The position numbers were made by a program, and so were the translations under genes. A stretch of 64,000 bases of DNA from Dyella subtropica (lineage in GTDB: Bacteria; Pseudomonadota; Gammaproteobacteria; Xanthomonadales; Rhodanobacteraceae): positions 124,001-188,000 of the forward strand of contig NZ_JAPDPD010000002.1 of assembly GCF_026283965.1 (NCBI RefSeq), in the 5' to 3' direction. The number at the start of each line of letters is the position of its first letter. The stretch's first letter is position 1. Below, piece after piece: positions 11,665 through 64,000 of this stretch. Under the pieces are notes generated by a model. It searched no databases. It was given only the letters and a program-made list of their open reading frames with translations, and was not told where the DNA came from.

Positions 11665-14253
11665 ATGCGGATGGACAAACTCACGTCGCGTTTCCAGCAG
11701 GCGTTGGCTGATGCGCAATCGCTGGCGGTCGGTCGCGATCACAACATGCTAGAGCCCGTGCACGTGATGGCGGCACTGCTTGACCAACAGGGCGGCTCGA
11801 CCGCACCGATGCTCACTCAGGTTCAAGTCAATGTGCCAACCTTGCGCCAGCGCATCGGCGAAACGCTTGAGCGCCTACCGCGCGTCAGCGGGCAGGAAGG
11901 CAATGTGCATGTCGGCAATGAGCTGACGCGCCTGCTCAATCTCACCGACAAGCTCGCACAACAGCGCGGTGATCAGTTCATCGCCAGCGAGCTGTTTGTG
12001 CTCGCCGCACTGGACGACAAGGGCGAGCTAGGTGCAGCGCTGAAAGCCGCTGGCGCTACTAAAGCCAATGTGGAAGCCGCTATCGACAAGCTGCGCGGCG
12101 GCGAGAAAGTGCAGAGCGAAAACGCCGAGGAGCAACGTCAGGCGCTGGAGAAATACTGCGTCGATCTCACCTCGCGCGCCGAAAGCGGCAAGCTCGATCC
12201 GGTGATCGGTCGCGACGAGGAAATTCGCCGCACCATCCAGGTACTTCAGCGTCGCACCAAGAACAACCCTGTGCTGATCGGCGAGCCCGGCGTGGGCAAG
12301 ACCGCCATCGTCGAAGGCCTGGCCCAGCGCATCGTGAAGGGCGAGGTGCCCGAAGGCCTGCGTGATCGCCGTGTGCTCTCGCTGGACATGGGCGCGCTGA
12401 TCGCCGGCGCCAAATTCCGTGGCGAATTCGAAGAGCGCCTGAAGGCGGTGCTCAACGATCTCGCCAAACAGGAAGGCCGGGTGATCCTGTTTATCGACGA
12501 GCTGCACACCATGGTCGGCGCCGGCAAGGCCGACGGTGCGATGGACGCCGGCAACATGCTCAAGCCCGCGCTCTCTCGCGGCGAACTGCATTGCATCGGC
12601 GCCACCACACTGGATGAGTACCGCAAGTACATCGAGAAGGATGCCGCGCTGGAGCGCCGCTTCCAGAAAGTGTTCGTCGGTGAACCCAGCGTGGAAGACA
12701 CCATTGCCATCCTGCGCGGGCTGAAGGAGCGCTACGCCGTGCATCACGGCGTGGAAATCACCGACCCGGCGATCGTCGCCGCAGCCACGCTGTCGAATCG
12801 CTATATCACCGATCGTCAGCTGCCGGACAAAGCCATTGACCTGATGGACGAAGCGGCCAGCCGCATCCGCATGGAGATCGATTCCAAGCCGGAGGAGCTG
12901 GATCGCCTGGAGCGGCGCCTGATCCAGTTGAAGATCCAGCGCGAGATGTTGAAGAAAGAAACCGACGAAGCGTCCAAGAAGCGTCTCGCCGGCCTGGAAT
13001 CGGATATCGAAAAGCTCGAGCGCGAGTTCTCCGATCTCAACGAAATCTGGAAGTCCGAGAAGGCCGCATTGCAAGGCGCGACCAAGGTGAAGGAGCAGAT
13101 CGAGCAGGCGCGCGTGGAACTGGAATCGGCGCAGCGCCGGCAGGACTACGCCAAGATGAGCGAGATCCAGTACGGCCGCCTGCCGGAGCTGGAAAAGCAG
13201 CTCACCGCCGCCCAGGCCGCCGAGAAGCAGGAGTTCAAGCTGCTGCAGGATCGCGTCACTGACGAAGAAATCGCCGAAGTCGTCTCGCGCTGGACTGGCA
13301 TCCCGGTCAGCAAGATGCTCGAAGGCGAGCGCGACAAACTGCTGCACATGGAGTCTTCGCTGCACAAGCGGGTGGTTGGTCAGGACGAAGCGGTGCGTGC
13401 GGTGTCCGATGCGATCCGCCGCGCGCGCGCGGGTCTCTCCGATCCCAACCGTCCGTACGGTTCGTTCCTGTTCCTTGGTCCCACCGGTGTGGGCAAGACC
13501 GAGCTGTGCAAGGCGCTGGCCGAGTTCCTGTTCGACGCGCAGGACGCGATGGTGCGTATCGACATGAGCGAGTTCATGGAGAAGCACTCCGTGAGTCGCC
13601 TGATCGGTGCGCCTCCGGGCTACGTCGGTTATGAGGAAGGCGGTTATCTCACTGAGGCGGTGCGTCGGCGTCCGTACAGCGTGATCCTGCTGGACGAGGT
13701 GGAGAAGGCGCATCCGGATGTGTTCAACATCCTGTTGCAGGTGCTCGATGACGGCCGGCTCACCGACGGCCAGGGGCGCACGGTGGATTTCCGCAACACC
13801 GTGATCGTGATGACGTCCAACCTTGGTTCGCAACTGATCCAGGAAATGGAGTCGGATGAGAGCGACGAGAGCTACACCAAGATGAAGGCAGCGGTGCTTG
13901 GCGTGGTGCAGGCGCACTTCCGTCCGGAGTTCATCAACCGTCTCGATGAGCTGGTGGTGTTCCGTCCGCTGGAGAAGAAGCAGATCCGCAGAATCGCGTT
14001 GATCCAGCTGACTTATCTGGAGAAGCGTCTGGCCGAGCGTCAGCTGCGGTTGGAGATCAGCGACAAGGCGCTGGATCTGCTCGGCAATGTCGGGTTCGAT
14101 CCGGTGTATGGGGCGCGGCCGTTGAAGCGGGCGATCCAGCAGCAGTTGGAGAATCCGCTGGCGAGGGAGATTCTCGAGGGGCGTTACGCTCCGGGTGACA
14201 CGATTGTTGTGGATGCCGAGAGTGGGCAACTGGTGTTCCACACGCAGCGCTGA
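11665..14253 (+). CDS. clpB: ATP-dependent disaggregase ClpB
   Basis: An 862-residue Hsp100 chaperone that, with DnaK, threads and rescues aggregated proteins. Order: Clp N-domain (1-145), AAA-1 with Walker A GEPGVGKT and Walker [11 protein letters not shown], a long coiled-coil middle domain (about 395-525, rich in Glu/Lys/Arg), AAA-2 with GPTGVGKT and [14 protein letters not shown], and the C-terminal D2-small domain. Length is standard. [12 protein letters not shown] at 11665 is the family start; the frame is open for 30 codons upstream through the promoter. The pore-loop GYVGYEEGG is present in AAA-2. A sigma-32-like promoter precedes it. Confidence 0.97.
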
Positions 14254-14260
14254 TCTGACA

Positions 14261-14656
14261 GCTCTGCTCCCTCTCCCCCAAGTGAAATAAGAGCAGGGGG
14301 AGAGGGTTAGGGTGAGGGGCGGGTGCTCGCGACGGCATCTCTACTTCGTCACGCCGGCGTAGGCCGGGGTCCAGTGGCGTTGTCGTTTGATGTTTGCGAT
14401 ATCGCAACCGGGCTCGCCTGCCGCGGGCTTTCGAACCGCTGCCGCGGTCCGAGTCACTTTTCTCTGTTTGGCCAGAGAAAAGTAACCAAAAGAGAGGCCA
14501 CCCCGGTTCCGCGCCCTCCGGCTTCGCCTGCGGGTCCGTGAGGTCTGGCCGGGCTTTTCGACACGACATCCCTGTCGTGTCGAAAAGGAACCGCCATCCA
14601 TGGCGGTCCCCCTGCGGGCCTTATCGTCCAGCCCTCACCGCTGCACAGGGGACCCG
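14261..14656 (+). repeat. Large structured intergenic repeat, copy 1
   Basis: First of three related elements (others at 16959-17332 and 63578-64000). In order: a CCCTCTCCCCC/GGGGGAGAGGG hairpin (14269-14306, possibly the clpB terminator), a GC stem near 14351-14370, the invariant hairpin cttttctctg/cagagaaaag (14458-14483), the block agtaaccaaaagagaggcca, a 15-bp stem cttttcgacacgaca/tgtcgtgtcgaaaag (14554-14587), a variable stem accgcca/tggcggt (14592-14609), then gtccagccctcaccgctgca. Apparent ORFs on both strands differ in frame between copies and are not believed to be genes. Confidence 0.9.
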
Positions 14657-14665
14657 AAGATCAAG

Positions 14666-14749
14666 AGCTGAAGAGCAACAGCTGAAGAGCAACAGCTGAA
14701 GAGCAACAGCTGAAGAGCAACAGCTGAAGAGCAACAGCTGAAGAGCAAC
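14666..14749. repeat. Tandem minisatellite, 6 x 14 nt
   Basis: Six exact consecutive copies of agctgaagagcaac end 11 bp from the stop codon of the phospholipase gene (14761). The unit is not a multiple of three and lies outside the gene, so copy-number change would not alter the protein. Perfect identity between units implies recent expansion and possible strain-to-strain variation. Confidence 0.95.
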
Positions 14750-14760
14750 AGCGAAGTGCG

Positions 14761-16776
14761 TTATCTCGGCTCGCTGAAGCTCGCCGCGCCGTTCTCCATG
14801 TGTCCGGCAATCCTTCGTGACCAACCGCTGGCTTCTGCGACGGTGATGTTGAGGTCGTACCAGTTGGCGAAGGTGCTGAGGTCCCAGGTGTCGGTGTGGC
14901 TGCCGTGGGCGGGGACGGAGTAGATGCGGACGTCGGCGCCGAGGTAGCCGTTGCTGACGGTGAAGGTGCAGGTGTTGGTGCCTGCGTTGGTCATGATCAG
15001 TTGCAGGCTGTTGTTGCTGGGGTTGTAGCTCAGCGAGATTTCCGGCATTACCGCGGCATTGGCGACGCCGCCTTTCCATACGCGCAGAAAGCCGTTCGGG
15101 CCGTGGGCTTCGAGTTGGTAGATGCCTTTGCTATAGGTTTTTGCGGTCCAGTAGTCGGAGAGTGTCTTGCCCGCTTCGACGGTGTAGCGCCACGGGCCGT
15201 CGCTGCGATTGGCGGCGTACACCTGGAATACGGCGCCGACGGTGCCGGTGTTGATGAATTCGAGTACGTAGCGGCCGGTGGAAGTGTTGACGCTGCCCTG
15301 GATGTCCAGTTCATACGGCAGGGCGCGCGCCGGTCGCGTGTTGGTGGATTCGGCGCCGGGCATGGACTGCGTGCTCGGCACGGTGGGGGCGGGCAAGGTG
15401 GAGCACTGGCTGTCGGCCTGCGCGGGGTATCCGCTGGTGGCGGGTAGGCTGGGCCAGGTGGTGGTGCTGCCGCTGAAATCGAAGGCCGAGGTGAGGTCGC
15501 CGCAGACGGCGCGGCGCCAGGCACTGATATTGGGTTCGGCGACGCCGAAGCGGTTTTCGAGGAAACGCAACACCGAGGTGTGGTCGAACACCTGCGAGCA
15601 GACCCAGCCGCCGGTGGACCATGGCGAGACCACCATCATCGGCACGCGGAAGCCGAGGCCGATCGGTTTGCCGCTGGTGATTTCGCCGGTGGTGCTGACG
15701 GTGGAAAGTCCATTGGACGACGACGATGGCGGTGTGGGTGGCGGCACGTGGTCGAAGAAGCCGCCGTTCTCGTCGTAGTTGAGGATGAAGACCGTCTTGG
15801 CATACACCGCAGGATTGGCGACCAGGGCAGCCAGCAGCTGCGAGGTGAGGTTTTCGCCGTAGGCGGGTTTGTAGTTCGCGTGCTCGGACAGATAGTCGGG
15901 CGCGACGATCCACGACACCTGCGGCAGTGTGTCGTTGGCCACATCGTTGGCGAACGCGCTCACCAGGTCGGGCACCATCGCCATGCCACGGTCGTACAGC
16001 GGCTGCCCGGGCGAGGACTGCTTGAACGAGGTGAACCACGCCAGCGCGTTGTCGTCGAAGTTGTTGCTCTGCTGGTAGACCTTCCAGCTGACGCCGGCGA
16101 TCTGCAGGCGCTCGGCGTAGGTGGTCCAGCTGAAGCCGGCGCTGGGCTCGGTGTTGTCGAGCACCGCGGTTTGTCCCACGGACAGTCCGTTACTGCCGCT
16201 GAAGAAATGCAGGCGGTTCGGATTGGTTTGGGTGAGGGTGGAGCAGAAATACTGGTCGCAGATGGTGAAGTGATCGGCCAACGAGTAATAGAACGGCAGG
16301 TCGTTGCGCGTGAAGTAGCCCATGCCGAGGCCGGGCGAGCGAGCGGTGTTCCACGCGTTGTACTTGCCGTTGTTCCAGATGGCGGTATCGACCGGATAGT
16401 TCATGGCCGGCGCATTGATGCAGATGCCGCTGGTGGTCGTCGTGTCCATATGGAACGGCAGCATGTAGCCGGCCGAATTGCCGGTATACGGCTGGTGCCA
16501 CACGTTTTGCGTGCCGCCGGGCAGCGGTGCCGGCACGCGGTCTGCAAAGCCGCGCACGCCGGCCATGCTGCCGTAGTAGTGATCGAATGAACGGTTTTCT
16601 TGCATGAAGATCACCACGTGCTGCACGTCGGTGATGGTGCCGTTTACCGTTGCCGCGGGGGTGGCCAGGGCTTGCCGGATGGCCGGTGGTAGGACTGACA
16701 TGGCCGCTAGGCCGCCGGCCGAGGCGGCTGCCATTTTGAGGAAATTGCGTCGCTTGACGTCGTCGATCTCGCTCAT
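14761..16776 (-). CDS. TAT-exported phospholipase C (phosphoesterase family, PlcN-like)
   Basis: A 671-residue secreted phospholipase C of the phosphocholine-specific/AcpA family. The N-terminus has a twin-arginine signal (KRRNFLKMAAASAGGLAAM, Arg9-Arg10) followed by cleavage near residue 38. The phosphoesterase domain starts at DVQHVVIFMQENRSFDHYYG, with catalytic metal-site residues in the E-N-R-S-F-D-H-Y motif, and continues with NYDENGGFFDHVPPPTPP. Two C-terminal beta-sandwich (DUF756) repeats end the protein. It hydrolyses phospholipid head groups, probably for phosphate scavenging or host-membrane attack. GGAG precedes the ATG. The gene is monocistronic, flanked by repeat copies 1 and 2. 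Haemolytic and non-haemolytic types cannot be separated here. Confidence 0.9.
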   Translation of the reverse strand: MSEIDDVKRRNFLKMAAASAGGLAAMSVLPPAIRQALATPAATVNGTITDVQHVVIFMQENRSFDHYYGSMAGVRGFADRVPAPLPGGTQNVWHQPYTGNSAGYMLPFHMDTTTTSGICINAPAMNYPVDTAIWNNGKYNAWNTARSPGLGMGYFTRNDLPFYYSLADHFTICDQYFCSTLTQTNPNRLHFFSGSNGLSVGQTAVLDNTEPSAGFSWTTYAERLQIAGVSWKVYQQSNNFDDNALAWFTSFKQSSPGQPLYDRGMAMVPDLVSAFANDVANDTLPQVSWIVAPDYLSEHANYKPAYGENLTSQLLAALVANPAVYAKTVFILNYDENGGFFDHVPPPTPPSSSSNGLSTVSTTGEITSGKPIGLGFRVPMMVVSPWSTGGWVCSQVFDHTSVLRFLENRFGVAEPNISAWRRAVCGDLTSAFDFSGSTTTWPSLPATSGYPAQADSQCSTLPAPTVPSTQSMPGAESTNTRPARALPYELDIQGSVNTSTGRYVLEFINTGTVGAVFQVYAANRSDGPWRYTVEAGKTLSDYWTAKTYSKGIYQLEAHGPNGFLRVWKGGVANAAVMPEISLSYNPSNNSLQLIMTNAGTNTCTFTVSNGYLGADVRIYSVPAHGSHTDTWDLSTFANWYDLNITVAEASGWSRRIAGHMENGAASFSEPR

Positions 16777-16958: not shown

Positions 16959-17332
16959 TACTTCGTCATCCCTGCGCAGGCAGGGATCCAGTGCCTTGCC
17001 GCTCGGTTGTCGCGTTATCGCGTTCTGGTCGCCTTCGGCGGGTTCCGTCCTCCTGCCGGAGGCCGGGTCACTTTTCTCTGCTTGGCCAGAGAAAAGTAAC
17101 CAAAAGAGAGGCCACCCCGGTTGCGCGCCCTTCGGGTCCGTGAGGTCTGGCCGGGCTTTTCGACACGACGTCCCTGTCGTGTCGAAAAGGCGCAGGCATC
17201 CATGCCTGCACCCCCTTCGGGGCCTGATCGTCCAGCCCTCACCGCTGCACAGGGGCCCATGTACGGCTCGCTTACGCATCGCCTTTGCTTCTGCTCCCTC
17301 CCTTGCTTGCAGGGGAGGGCTGGGGAGGGGTG
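16959..17332 (+). repeat. Large structured intergenic repeat, copy 2
   Basis: Second copy, same orientation as copy 1. It shares the invariant cttttctctg/cagagaaaag hairpin, the agtaaccaaaagagaggcca block and the cttttcgacacgac/gtcgtgtcgaaaag stem. Its 5' stem reads atccctgc/gcagggat instead of accccggc/gccggggt in copy 3, and its variable stem reads gcaggca/tgcctgc. It ends with gctcgcttacgcatcgcc and a CCCTCCC/GGGGAGGG hairpin (about 17293-17316). It lies between the phospholipase start and the cobalamin riboswitch, in a 647-bp stretch without genes. Confidence 0.9.
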
Positions 17333-17424
17333 AGTACTTGAGACGGCGTATCAGCTAAGTCATCAGCGAATCCAACCAAGCCTCGCGCTCTGCGCTAAGA
17401 TCGCCCGGCCTGAGGTGACTGCCG

Positions 17425-17605
17425 GCGTTGGCTGGTGGTTGAAACGGGAATCCGGTGCGTCATGTGTGTATGGCAATTCCGGAGCTGCCCCCGCAACGGT
17501 AGGCGAGTAAACGACTGGCGAATGCCACTGTGCTTAGGCATGGGAAGGCGCCAGTCGGGAAGGCATCAGCCTTCGCTCGCGAGCCCGGAGACCGGCCTTG
17601 AGGTG
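17425..17605 (+). promoter_or_regulatory. Cobalamin (adenosylcobalamin) riboswitch
   Basis: The conserved pieces appear in order: ggtggttgaaacgggaatcc, gagctgcccccgcaacggta (about 17482-17501), gccactg (17524-17530), tgggaaggc, and the B12 box gagcccggagaccggcc (17581-17597). The aptamer lies about 120 bp upstream of btuB. It should reduce btuB and possibly the whole downstream cob operon when cobalamin is plentiful. A small stem CCGCGC/GCGCGG (17693-17710) directly precedes the btuB Shine-Dalgarno, so control of translation is more likely than termination. Confidence 0.95.
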
Positions 17606-17724
17606 AACCGGACATGCGGTGGGCAATGTCGTGGATGGCATGCGTCCGCGTGTCCGCCAAGTCTCCCTCCGTCTGTCCTGACCCCATGCGTTCCGCGCGG
17701 GCAGGCGCGGTGTAGGAGCTTTCA

Positions 17725-19605
17725 GTGTCTTTGCATTCTTCTTTTGCGCGCCAGTCCGCGTTGGCGGCGGCGTTGTGTTGTGTCGCGCTCCCATGTGTAT
17801 GTTCTCCTTTGTTCGCTGCTGATGCGGCGGCGGATTCGGCCAGTGATCTCAACGGCGTGGTGGTGACGGCCACGCGTACGGAGCAGACGCAGGCGAGTAC
17901 GTTGGCGGCGGTCACGGTGATTGATCGCGCGGATATCGAGCGGCTGCAGCCGCAGTCGGTGCAGGATTTACTGCAGGGTACGCCGGGGATGTCGATCGCC
18001 AACAATGGTGGTCTGGGCAAGTCCACGTCGCTGTTTCTGCGTGGCACCGAGGCGGATCACGTACTGATCCTGGTGGATGGGGTGAAGATCGGTTCGGCCA
18101 CGTTGGGACAGGCGTCGATCCAGAACATTCCGGTGGATCAGATCGAGCGGATCGAGATCGTGCGCGGTCCGTTTTCCAGTTTGTACGGCTCCGAGGCGCT
18201 GGGTGGCGTGATCCAGATTTTCACGCGACGTCCGCAGGGGGGCTTCGCGCCGAATTTCAATCTGGGCTATGGCACCCAGCAGACGGTGCGCGCGGGCGCC
18301 GGTGTGGGCGGCAAGGTCGGCGACGGCTGGTATGCCGCCGAGGCGACACACGAAAACACGGACGGCATCAACGCTTGCCGCGGCAAGCCCTTCCCCCATG
18401 GCGCGGGTTGCTATGTCTATGAACCGGATCGTGACGGTTTCCGCAATCACTCGGTGTCGCTCAAGGGTGGTTATCGCTTCAGCGAGGCGTGGGACGCGGA
18501 TGCGCAATGGCTGCGTACCTGGGGCTTCAACAAATACGACGGTTCGTACACCAACCAGTCCGAAGTGGTGGATCAGGTAGCCGGTGCGCGGCTGCATTAC
18601 CGCCCGAGCAAGGCGCTGACGCTGACCTTGAACGTGGGGCAGAGTGCGGACCTCAGTGACGACTACGAAAACCGGGTCTACGTCGACACCTTCAATACCC
18701 GCCGCGATCTTGGTTCACTGCAGGGCGATCTCTCGCTGGGCGGCGGGTTGTGGAGTCTGGGTTACGACTGGCAGCGCGATCGGGTAAATAGCACCACGAC
18801 CTATGCGCGCACCCGTCGCCTTGACCGCGGCGTGTTCGCCCAGTGGCAGCAGACCTTCGGTGCGCAATCGCTGCAAGCCAGTGTGCGCCGCGACGACAAC
18901 CAGCAATTCGGAGGCAAGACCACGGGCAGCCTGTTGTGGGGTTGGGATTTCACTAGCGTGCTGCGGCTGACGGCGAGCGCGGGCACGGCTTTCAAAGCGC
19001 CAACCTTCAACGAGCTCTACTACCCCGGTTACGGCAACGCGGCTTTGAAGCCGGAGACTTCGCACAACTATGAGCTTGGCCTGCGCGGAACGCATAGCTG
19101 GGGCAACTGGTCGCTCAACGCCTTCGAAAACCGCATCCGCGACCTGATCGCGTATGACGCCTCGATCGGCCTGCCGGGCAATGTGGAGCGTGTGCGCATC
19201 CATGGCGTGGAGGCGGTGGCGAATACCTCGCTGGCCGGCTGGGATCTTCGCGGCACCGCAACCTGGCTCGATCCACGCAACGAGAGCAATGGACCCAATC
19301 ACGATAAGTGGTTGCCGCGCCGTGCCGGCCGCAGCGCGCGCATCGATGCCGATCGCCGCTTTGGGGCTTTCAGCGTGGGCGCCAGCGTGTATGCCGCGGA
19401 TGATCGTTACGACGATCTGGCCAACAAGCAGCACCTTGGTGGGTACGCATTGACCGATCTGCGCTTTGCTTACGCGATCGATCGCGCGTGGAAACTGCAG
19501 CTCAGTGTGCGCAACGTGTTCGACAAGCGCTACGAAACCGCGGCTTATTACAACCAGTTGGGCCGCACGGCGATGTTGAGTGTGAGTTACCAGCCCGCTC
19601 TGTAA
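17725..19605 (+). CDS. btuB: TonB-dependent vitamin B12 receptor BtuB
   Basis: A 626-residue outer-membrane receptor for corrinoids. The signal peptide ends near residue 32, followed by a TonB-box-like segment (NGVVVTATRTE), the plug domain (VIDRADIERLQPQSVQDLLQ, LFLRGTEADHVLILVDGVKI, IEIVRGPFSSLYGSEALGGV) and a 22-strand barrel ending in LGRTAMLSVSYQPAL with the C-terminal hydrophobic strand. The start is GTG with taggag seven bases upstream. The cobalamin riboswitch immediately before it and the cobalamin-synthesis genes after it make the substrate assignment firm. Confidence 0.95.
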   Translation: MSLHSSFARQSALAAALCCVALPCVCSPLFAADAAADSASDLNGVVVTATRTEQTQASTLAAVTVIDRADIERLQPQSVQDLLQGTPGMSIANNGGLGKSTSLFLRGTEADHVLILVDGVKIGSATLGQASIQNIPVDQIERIEIVRGPFSSLYGSEALGGVIQIFTRRPQGGFAPNFNLGYGTQQTVRAGAGVGGKVGDGWYAAEATHENTDGINACRGKPFPHGAGCYVYEPDRDGFRNHSVSLKGGYRFSEAWDADAQWLRTWGFNKYDGSYTNQSEVVDQVAGARLHYRPSKALTLTLNVGQSADLSDDYENRVYVDTFNTRRDLGSLQGDLSLGGGLWSLGYDWQRDRVNSTTTYARTRRLDRGVFAQWQQTFGAQSLQASVRRDDNQQFGGKTTGSLLWGWDFTSVLRLTASAGTAFKAPTFNELYYPGYGNAALKPETSHNYELGLRGTHSWGNWSLNAFENRIRDLIAYDASIGLPGNVERVRIHGVEAVANTSLAGWDLRGTATWLDPRNESNGPNHDKWLPRRAGRSARIDADRRFGAFSVGASVYAADDRYDDLANKQHLGGYALTDLRFAYAIDRAWKLQLSVRNVFDKRYETAAYYNQLGRTAMLSVSYQPAL

Positions 19606-47212: not shown

Positions 47213-47288
47213 GGGCCGTTAGCTCAGTCGGTAGAGCAGTAGACTTTTAATCTATTGGTCCCGAGTTCGAATCTCGGACGGCCCACCA
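47213..47288 (+). tRNA. tRNA-Lys (anticodon TTT)
   Basis: A 76-nt cloverleaf including an encoded CCA. The acceptor stem pairs gggccgt with acggccc, the D-arm contains agctcagtcggtagagc, the anticodon loop is CTTTTAA (anticodon UUU, lysine) closed by gtaga/tctat, and the T-arm is cgagttcgaatctcg. It is a single tRNA with its own promoter-like sequence and a terminator 9 bases downstream. Confidence 0.97.
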
Positions 47289-63577: not shown

Positions 63578-64000
63578 GCTCCCTCTCCCCTCAGGGGAGA
63601 GGGTTGAGGTGAGAGGCGGGTGCTCGCGATAACCTCACACTGTCGTCACCCCGGCGTAGGCCGGGGTCCAGTGTCTTTGCGCTTCGATTGTCGCGTCTGC
63701 GTGTTCGGGCTCGCCTGCCGCGGGCTTTCGAACCGCTGCCGCGGTCCGAGTCACTTTTCTCTGTTTGGCCAGAGAAAAGTAACCAAAAGAGAAGCCACCC
63801 CGGTTACGCGCCCTCCGGCTTCGCCTGCGGGTTCGTGAGGACTGGCCGGGCTTTTCGACACGACGTCCCTGTCGTGTCGAAAAGGCATCGACGTCCTGTC
63901 GATGCCCCCTTCGGGGCCTGATCGTCCAGCCCTCACCGCTGCACAGGGGACCCTTCACGGGCTCGCTTACGCATCGCCGCTGCATTGCTCCCTCTCCCCT
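63578..64000 (+). repeat. Large structured intergenic repeat, copy 3 (runs to window end)
   Basis: Third copy of the element, same orientation. It starts with CCCTCTCCCC/GGGGAGAGGG (63581-63603), then accccggc/gccggggt, the invariant cttttctctg/cagagaaaag hairpin, agtaaccaaaagagaagcca, the cttttcgacacgac/gtcgtgtcgaaaag stem, the variable stem gcatcgac/gtcgatgc, the shared gctcgcttacgcatcgcc, and another CCCTCTCCCCT arm at the window edge. It fills most of the 590 bp after the start of the hybrid kinase; 63411-63577 shows nothing else recognisable. Confidence 0.9.

Follow-up and report, generated by a model that had tools for sequence, protein, structure and literature searches.

Copies of the element in the window

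The window analysed here, a stretch of 64,000 nucleotides from the genome of Dyella subtropica, carries three copies of an element composed of two modules on the minus strand. In copy 1, a module of two hairpins with GGA in their loops lies together with its closing stem at 14500..14650 (160.6 bits, E 6.5e-30, with covariance model R1), and a pseudoknot module with a 3' hairpin lies at 14417..14502 (85.6 bits with model R2); the corresponding modules are found at 17114..17254 (137.7 bits) and 17031..17116 (88.1 bits) in copy 2, and at 63797..63948 (151.7 bits) and 63714..63799 (84.5 bits) in copy 3, all on the minus strand. In 5'-to-3' order, the RNA of this strand has the closing stem enclosing a small CCC-GGG hairpin and the two GGA-loop hairpins, followed by an H-type pseudoknot and then by the 3' hairpin.

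The stems described in an earlier note on this DNA are all present in the sequence, as read directly in the three window copies. Its accgcca/tggcggt stem of copy 1 corresponds to hairpin 2 of the RNA (14590..14607, minus strand), whose loop, TGGA between A and T, reads ATGGAT; the stem itself stood, although its arms lie at 14590-14596 and 14601-14607, two bases to the left of the span 14592-14609 first assigned to it. Its counterparts, in plus-strand letters, are gcaggca (17192-17198) with tgcctgc (17203-17209) in copy 2 and gcatcgac (63885-63892) with gtcgatgc (63898-63905) in copy 3. Hairpin 1 of copy 1, of 14 bp, spans 14554..14587 with the minus-strand loop AGGGAT, also read directly, and the long-range closing stem, taken from the fold of copy 2, spans 14538..14638 on the minus strand with plus-strand arms at 14538-14548 and 14628-14638. 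In the covariation alignment, hairpin 2 is helix 7, hairpin 1 is helices 8 and 9, and the closing stem is helix 5, in which all ten pairs have two-sided changes and copy 1 carries one mismatch.

Within the pseudoknot module of copy 1, also on the minus strand, stem 2 spans 14457..14482 (plus-strand arms cttttctctg at 14457-14466 and cagagaaaag at 14473-14482, extended by gtcac/gtaac), and stem 1 spans 14469..14500 (plus-strand arms tggcc at 14469-14473 and ggcca at 14496-14500). The proposed third strand of a triple helix, based on triple covariation, lies at 14488..14495, where the plus strand reads aaaagaga and the minus-strand RNA UCUCUUUU. Exact half-sites of cttttctctg occur six times in the window, against a mean of 0.04 after shuffling. 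The description of this stem as invariant holds for the three window copies, in which it is identical, but elsewhere in the genome it varies with compensation (cttttctttg/caaagaaaag, cttctctttg/caaagagaag and others).

The stem that had been called the 5' stem (for example accccggc/gccggggt followed by tccagtg) occupies 14351-14376, 16968-16993 and 63648-63673, which is 3' of the last hairpin of the RNA. The two compensated pairs reported for it between copies 2 and 3 were confirmed (T-A to C-G and T-A to G-C), and a single mismatch interrupts this stem in copy 1. Its exact pattern occurs at three sites in the window, all beside the elements, with three one-mismatch sites elsewhere, and it is absent beside many element copies of other genera. 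At the opposite end, a 14-base tandem unit, GAAGAGCAACAGCT, is repeated 7.3 times at 14656-14756 and adjoins the RNA 5' end of copy 1; short tandem runs are present on the same side in some other copies. The window also contains a cobalamin riboswitch on the plus strand (17396-17614, 109.6 bits), about 140 bases from copy 2 and preceding an open reading frame of 626 aa (17725-19605), and a tRNA gene on the plus strand (47213-47285). Open reading frames of 101-170 aa overlap copy 1 at 14057-14569 (minus), 14394-14699 (plus) and 14621-15079 (minus); these are probably not genes and could become annotated as hypothetical proteins.

Selection on the structure and strand of the RNA

From covariation among the window copies, the earlier note had proposed that the structure is selected, as a functional RNA or a structure-recognised DNA element, and had named covariation over many copies as a way to check this. 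The first alignment was made from 27 copies of this genome and of other genera in minus-strand sense, and its RNAalifold consensus, with two-sided compensated change in 36 of 42 pairs, preceded the building of the covariance model. In an alignment of 112 distinct copies fitted to the model, 96.8% of the cells were paired, compared with 68.4% in shuffles and 42-47% in slid structures, two-sided change was found in 41 of the 42 pairs, and all 500 shuffles were lower on every measure. The unfitted 27-sequence alignment agrees (94.5% paired against 75.3%, and covariation above all slid controls). The controls used were shuffles, slid structures and permutations; the copies are related by descent, and the permutation results are not true probabilities. 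At hairpin 2, 44 copies from this genome show four sequence types with a perfect stem of 6-10 pairs in 43, and the plus-strand loops have TCC in 42, TACG in one, and one copy scored as a 3-bp hairpin only.

These data strongly support the proposal of a selected structure, and between its two forms the minus-strand excess of G-U pairs favours RNA. The mix of covarying and fixed stems on which the proposal was built is seen in the window, but the fixed stem varies outside it. As far as comparison of the copies goes, this mixed pattern is explained by the triple helix, in which stem 2 changes together with the third strand, and by GGA loops carried on freely varying stems. Independent small palindromes inserted at one site, the case that would have counted against selection, were not supported, as one hairpin position and one loop motif with graded compensation were found in many genera.

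On the minus strand, G-U pairs in the hairpin module outnumber A-C mismatches by 133 to 15, and by 88 to 15 without the single pair that supplies 45 of the 133; in stem 2 of the pseudoknot the counts are 16 and 3, under a detection rule neutral between both mismatches. Because of this imbalance, the RNA was assigned to the minus strand of the window, a reading that the G-U excess over A-C favours. Among 70 copies drawn randomly from those of at least 130 bases, with 25 shuffles each, the raw folding energy was lower for the minus-strand RNA in 63, and in 48 after shuffle correction, with mean z-scores that differ little between the strands (-6.6 and -6.4); folded by itself, copy 2 does better as plus-strand RNA (-71.7 against -67.2). 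A plus-strand RNA or a plain DNA cruciform was rejected on strand polarity, from the G-U and A-C counts and the folding energies. Taken as comparative evidence, we regard a selected RNA structure on the minus strand as nearly certain.

The pseudoknot and the proposed triple helix

The cttttctctg stem belongs to an H-type pseudoknot as its stem 2, and the flanking uggcc/ggcca form stem 1. On the minus strand, a pyrimidine tract beside stem 2 mirrors the stem arm: AGAGAAAA occurs with UCUCUUUU and AAAGAAAA with UUUCUUUU, and further natural types pair AAGAAGAA with UUCUUCUU and AAAGGAGA with UUUCCUCU, among others. In H-type pseudoknots, loop 1 occupies the deep groove of stem 2 and has the same direction as the purine strand there; the orientation of the tract, parallel to the purine strand of stem 2, is the one expected from this geometry. 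Stem 2 was found in 104 of 117, a few of which (such as L139, L150, L169, L176 and L195) are plainly another hairpin, and stem 1 in 94 of the 104 modules and not in the other 10.

In alignment A3, which comprises 40 modules hand-picked for variety from the 104, two-sided change was found in 15 of 18 pairs of the pseudoknot stems, and 99.6% of the cells were paired in stem 2 and 75.8% in stem 1, the low value for stem 1 arising partly from alignment slips in some rows. In a fixed register, canonical U.A-U or C.G-C triples account for 310 of 318 positions, a count that rests on the chosen rows, with a maximum of 266 in 10,000 permutations; within these 40 modules, C lies over G in 59 of 59 cases (maximum 39 in the permutations) and U stands opposite A in 251 of 255. 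Among 64 modules that were not hand-picked, being the distinct ones of the 94 with stem 1, 42 were perfect at 8/8, where permutations averaged 8.8 and reached at most 18; seven scored 2, with stem 1 misplaced, and two lacked the length needed for scoring. A further set of loci, mostly from other genomes, was obtained with R2 and likewise not hand-picked (46 distinct of 55 modules, two without stem 2), and gave 30 of 46 at 8/8 against a mean of 8.5 and a maximum of 19; R2 contains the third strand as sequence, so this set is not free of selection, yet the model cannot dictate which C faces which G. An earlier count gave 55 of 80 distinct modules at 8/8, with a weak sliding-register swap control (mean 6.1 against 7.3). 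In module L255, a T-A inversion in the stem is faced by G, the classical choice opposite such an inversion in a pyrimidine-motif triplex. On these grounds, a pseudoknot with a triple helix appears highly probable.

Rfam 15 at gathering thresholds has no match to the pseudoknot in the window, permissive thresholds over the pseudoknot of copy 2 gave only matches with E 3.3 or worse, and TwoAYGGAY was the sole family matched in a search of nine loci. In open-licence papers, no report of the pseudoknot was found by sequence string, although earlier notice elsewhere is possible, and no report of the element was recognised by topic. At L225, about positions 320-430, the pseudoknot appears to contain TTCAACAGCCGAATGGCTGGTCAA together with the complementary sequence, a palindromic repeat that looks like the insertion of another small repeat.

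GGA loops and CsrA/RsmA

The sequence A-N-G-G-A is the binding motif of CsrA/RsmA. In a census of 106 distinct elements, each 125 bases or longer, from 117 matches to a search model that itself contains GGA loops, strictly defined hairpin loops on the minus strand had GGA in 198 of 250 and TCC in none. By the same rules, two or three GGA hairpins were found in 81 elements (67 and 14, respectively), one in 22 and none in three. Thirty-five loops of six bases have GGA at positions 3-5, a class defined by that placement such that only positions 1, 2 and 6 count as findings; within it, position 1 was A in all 35 and position 2 was free (G in 13, T in 9, A in 7, C in 6). Extra hairpins whose loops read TCC on the plus strand, and thus GGA on the minus strand, were noticed in or beside L090, L085 and L232 (for example GGGCATCCTGCCC and GCGCGCTTCCTGCGCGC), and some elements may thus carry three or four GGA hairpins, with three inside the model span in 14 of the 106.

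The Rfam family TwoAYGGAY matches the two-hairpin module, again on the minus strand, with 38.5 bits in copy 2 (E 7.6e-5 over 17120-17263) and 35.3 bits on part of the module in copy 1, at a gathering cut-off of 43, and with no match in copy 3. Among 39 of 298 candidates scored in the whole genome, at least 22 matches had E<=0.001 and at least eight other copies exceeded the gathering score, at 43.4-47.6 bits; locus L234, at 45.6 bits, also lies over the cut-off. TwoAYGGAY was found in at least 2 of 59 genomes of the family under stricter filters, compared with at least 94 of 117 for R1. The AYGGAY form of the loop is not general, as a pyrimidine (C or T) occupies position 2 in 15 of the 35 six-base GGA loops and a purine (G or A) in 20. 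The two-hairpin module is, as judged from its sequence, kin of TwoAYGGAY or a close analogue; it falls outside strict membership at position 2 of the loop, and its scores give a mixed picture. CsrA binding has been proposed for the TwoAYGGAY family (in an extract of PMC4333381), the sources of which are tabulated as human gut, gamma-Proteobacteria and Clostridiales (in part of PMC2864571). The one other Rsm-type Rfam match in the window copies was the RsmW hairpin in copy 3, at 19.7 bits (E 0.14; cut-off 52).

The earlier note had also suggested looking for a co-occurring RNA-binding or transposase family. The genome has one CsrA gene (E 1.3e-25), and CsrA was found in 39 of 43 element-bearing genomes searched, the four without a match being assemblies 73-95% complete. 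This co-occurrence is uninformative, since genomes in which no element was found have CsrA just as often (17 of 19). No Y1 transposase was matched in this genome. The GGA motifs of RsmA-binding RNAs have been discussed by the authors of the RsmU study (PMC7694677, in part), in which changing all four GGA motifs of RsmU to AAU left RsmA binding and the effects of overexpression in place. GGA alone thus proves little, and this result slightly lowers the odds both for the overall mechanism proposed below and for CsrA binding by the two-hairpin payload, towards which we still lean by a small degree; a decoy function towards CsrA/RsmA is doubtful on the sequence evidence. According to the same source, homologues of CsrB, RsmX, RsmY and RsmZ were not found in Xanthomonas genomes (PMC7694677, in part).

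Distribution, genomic position and interchangeable payloads

In this genome (4.95 Mb, 46 contigs), at least 75 matches to the two-hairpin model were obtained at E<=0.001, with 150 of 3958 candidates scored, and the stem-loop pattern occurs at 46 places with up to two mismatches. With covariance model R1, the element was found in at least 94 of 117 genomes of the family, representing 23 of 26 genera, and in at least 21 of 185 genomes of the class, and, with the pseudoknot model R2, the pseudoknot was found in at least 55 of 398 genomes of the phylum, under 18 family codes; 25, 16 and 11 candidates per genome were scored in these surveys, respectively, and those over 40 genomes used stricter filters, so that the match counts are lower bounds and the absences soft. 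A pattern scan of contigs returned nine stretches, naming Dyella sp. C11, Lysobacter sp. Root494 and a Gammaproteobacteria MAG. By DNA similarity, no match was found among 72,556 plasmid records or 50,697 phage records, and carriage on plasmids or phages was rejected on that basis.

For 41 of 51 copies of this genome, those with at least 600 bases of flank, the position was determined by a simple composition-based gene-calling rule: 23 lie in convergent gaps, eight between genes read like the RNA, eight between genes read against it and two in divergent gaps, such that, in 31 of the 41, a gene read in the direction of the RNA has its 3' end ahead of the element. Read-through is plausible rather than shown, because the tandem pairs are divided 8 to 8 and the convergent gaps (23 of 41) are strand-neutral. 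At the orthologous site of copy 1, the element is absent from the genus relatives G001 and G003 and a relative of it is present in G005; at that of copy 2, G002 has a relative, G001 a variant with another payload, and G003 and G005 no element. As presence and absence vary at orthologous sites within the genus, the repeat spreads or has spread. In other genera, the elements often form inverted pairs, divergent at L085, L090 and L094 and convergent at L093 and L132. A REP/RAYT system was rejected because this genome has no match to the REP-associated Y1 transposase (PF01797), for which 5 of 14 control genomes were positive.

The payload in front of the pseudoknot differs among elements. The relative G001 has a second class of pseudoknot element (L213-L224) with a conserved payload containing CCGACGCCTGACACTGGAAAAGGCGCAGCTAC or a close form of it and no GGA hairpins, while other families have a payload hairpin with a TTTGAGCG-AGCGAGTT motif ahead of this pseudoknot. 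At L243, L249, L250, L256 and L262, loci of such other families, a payload hairpin with TGTTTGAGCG-nAGCGAGTT or a close form lies between the arms of the closing stem, before the pseudoknot; this payload had no Rfam match at the four loci L243, L249, L250 and L256. Comparison of the elements thus indicates that the pseudoknot is their common part, and since it also follows payloads without GGA hairpins, CsrA binding is the role of one payload at most.

Proposed mechanism and alternative explanations

Comparison of the copies shows that the stems are evidently selected, that the element is polar with respect to strand, that the GGA loops are kept while their stems change, and that loop 1 matches the purine strand of stem 2 in the parallel Hoogsteen code (U.A-U and C.G-C). 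We propose that the element is a dispersed RNA-coding repeat specifying a 3'-UTR-type RNA that binds CsrA/RsmA and is capped by the triple-helix pseudoknot, an explanation to which we give, as a whole, a probability of roughly 45%. The minus strand would be transcribed mostly through read-through from a gene ending just upstream, as its 3' UTR or processed from one, and each pair of hairpins would take up a CsrA/RsmA dimer. Tens of copies might jointly deplete free RsmA in the manner of a decoy, or a copy might serve as an RsmA mark on the 3' UTR of its host mRNA, while the triple-helix pseudoknot and the 3' hairpin would block 3'-5' nucleases and preserve the RNA.

The strongest competitor to this CsrA/RsmA-binding RNA, although unlikely in itself, is a selfish mobile repeat, of which the structured RNA or single-stranded DNA would be the substrate of a mobilising enzyme, with GGA hairpins that aid spread or borrow a host protein and have no regulatory role. 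The copy number in one genome, the presence and absence at orthologous sites, the inverted pairs in other genera, the variation of payloads among pseudoknot-bearing elements and the rarity of divergent gaps (2 of 41 copies) would all suit such a repeat, whereas the search of this genome for Y1 transposases returned no mobilising enzyme, the plasmid and phage records had no match by DNA similarity, and loops and a third strand kept across families would be needless for a passenger module.

The common pseudoknot admits a further reading, in which the element is a stabiliser of 3' ends only: the pseudoknot-triplex would protect mRNAs ending in it, and the GGA hairpins would be one of several interchangeable inserts. 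The spread of the pseudoknot over the phylum with and without GGA hairpins and its position after stop codons fit this reading, but it leaves the constancy of the GGA loops, where present, unexplained, and we consider it unlikely. A structure-recognised DNA element of the REP/BIME kind, acting as a cruciform or H-DNA and not as RNA, is highly improbable, since its high copy number, extragenic position, inverted pairs and a mirror repeat that could in principle form H-DNA are opposed by the one-strand excess of G-U over A-C (133:15 and 16:3), unexpected for duplex DNA, by the lack of need for an inverted stem 2 in H-DNA, and by the missing Y1 transposase.

Returning to the CsrA/RsmA-binding RNA, its wider form would be a superfamily of dispersed bacterial RNAs ending in a pyrimidine-motif triple-helix pseudoknot of about eight layers, kept across many families of the phylum with interchangeable payloads, one of which is a CsrA-binding hairpin pair; where a CsrB/RsmZ-type RNA is unknown, as reported for Xanthomonas, tens of copies would set the free level of a global regulator. 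We put this forward tentatively, as a possibility somewhat short of even odds. If true, a noise-like repeat overlapped by open reading frames would be a structured RNA present in at least 94 of the 117 genomes sampled from the family. It would be a candidate antagonist of CsrA/RsmA for bacteria in which no sRNA of the known types is reported. It would also provide a natural, mutable library of triple helices, the pairing code of which is legible from evolution (A-U in 251/255 and G-C in 59/59 in the 40 chosen modules).

Comparison with known systems

Like REP/BIME repeats, the element is extragenic, occurs in many copies and forms inverted pairs; unlike them, it is about 240 bases long in two modules, has the polarity of an RNA strand, and occurs in a genome without the Y1 transposase. 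The pseudoknot of telomerase RNA, the SAM-II and preQ1-II riboswitches and the PAN/MALAT1 ENE contain U.A-U and C+.G-C major-groove triples. The element resembles them in having a pseudoknot or stem with such triples, a geometry here suggested by covariation, and differs in its approximately eight consecutive triples and its nature as a dispersed bacterial repeat, for which neither a ligand nor a poly(A) partner is apparent.

CsrB, RsmX, RsmY and RsmZ, sRNAs that sequester CsrA, have their own promoter and come from a single locus or a small number of loci. Similarly to these RNAs, the element has several hairpins presenting GGA in the loop, whereas it is a dispersed repeat. With TwoAYGGAY (RF01731, clan CL00106), it shares a pair of adjacent hairpins, about 10 and 15 bp long, that have GGA in their loops and lie inside an outer stem, in the same order and on the same strand; it differs in that the window copies are below the cut-off of 43 bits (38.5 and 35.3 bits) or have no match, in that loop position 2 can be any base where TwoAYGGAY has C or U, and in that the pseudoknot and third strand lie outside that Rfam model. 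RsmU of Xanthomonas campestris, an RsmA-binding sRNA that has several GGA motifs and derives from a 3' UTR, is a precedent for the RNA proposed here; it is a single locus, which the part of the source concerned (PMC7694677) reports in Xanthomonas only; by its description there, it is nevertheless like the element in its GGA motifs and in being a 3'-UTR RNA that binds RsmA, as proposed here.
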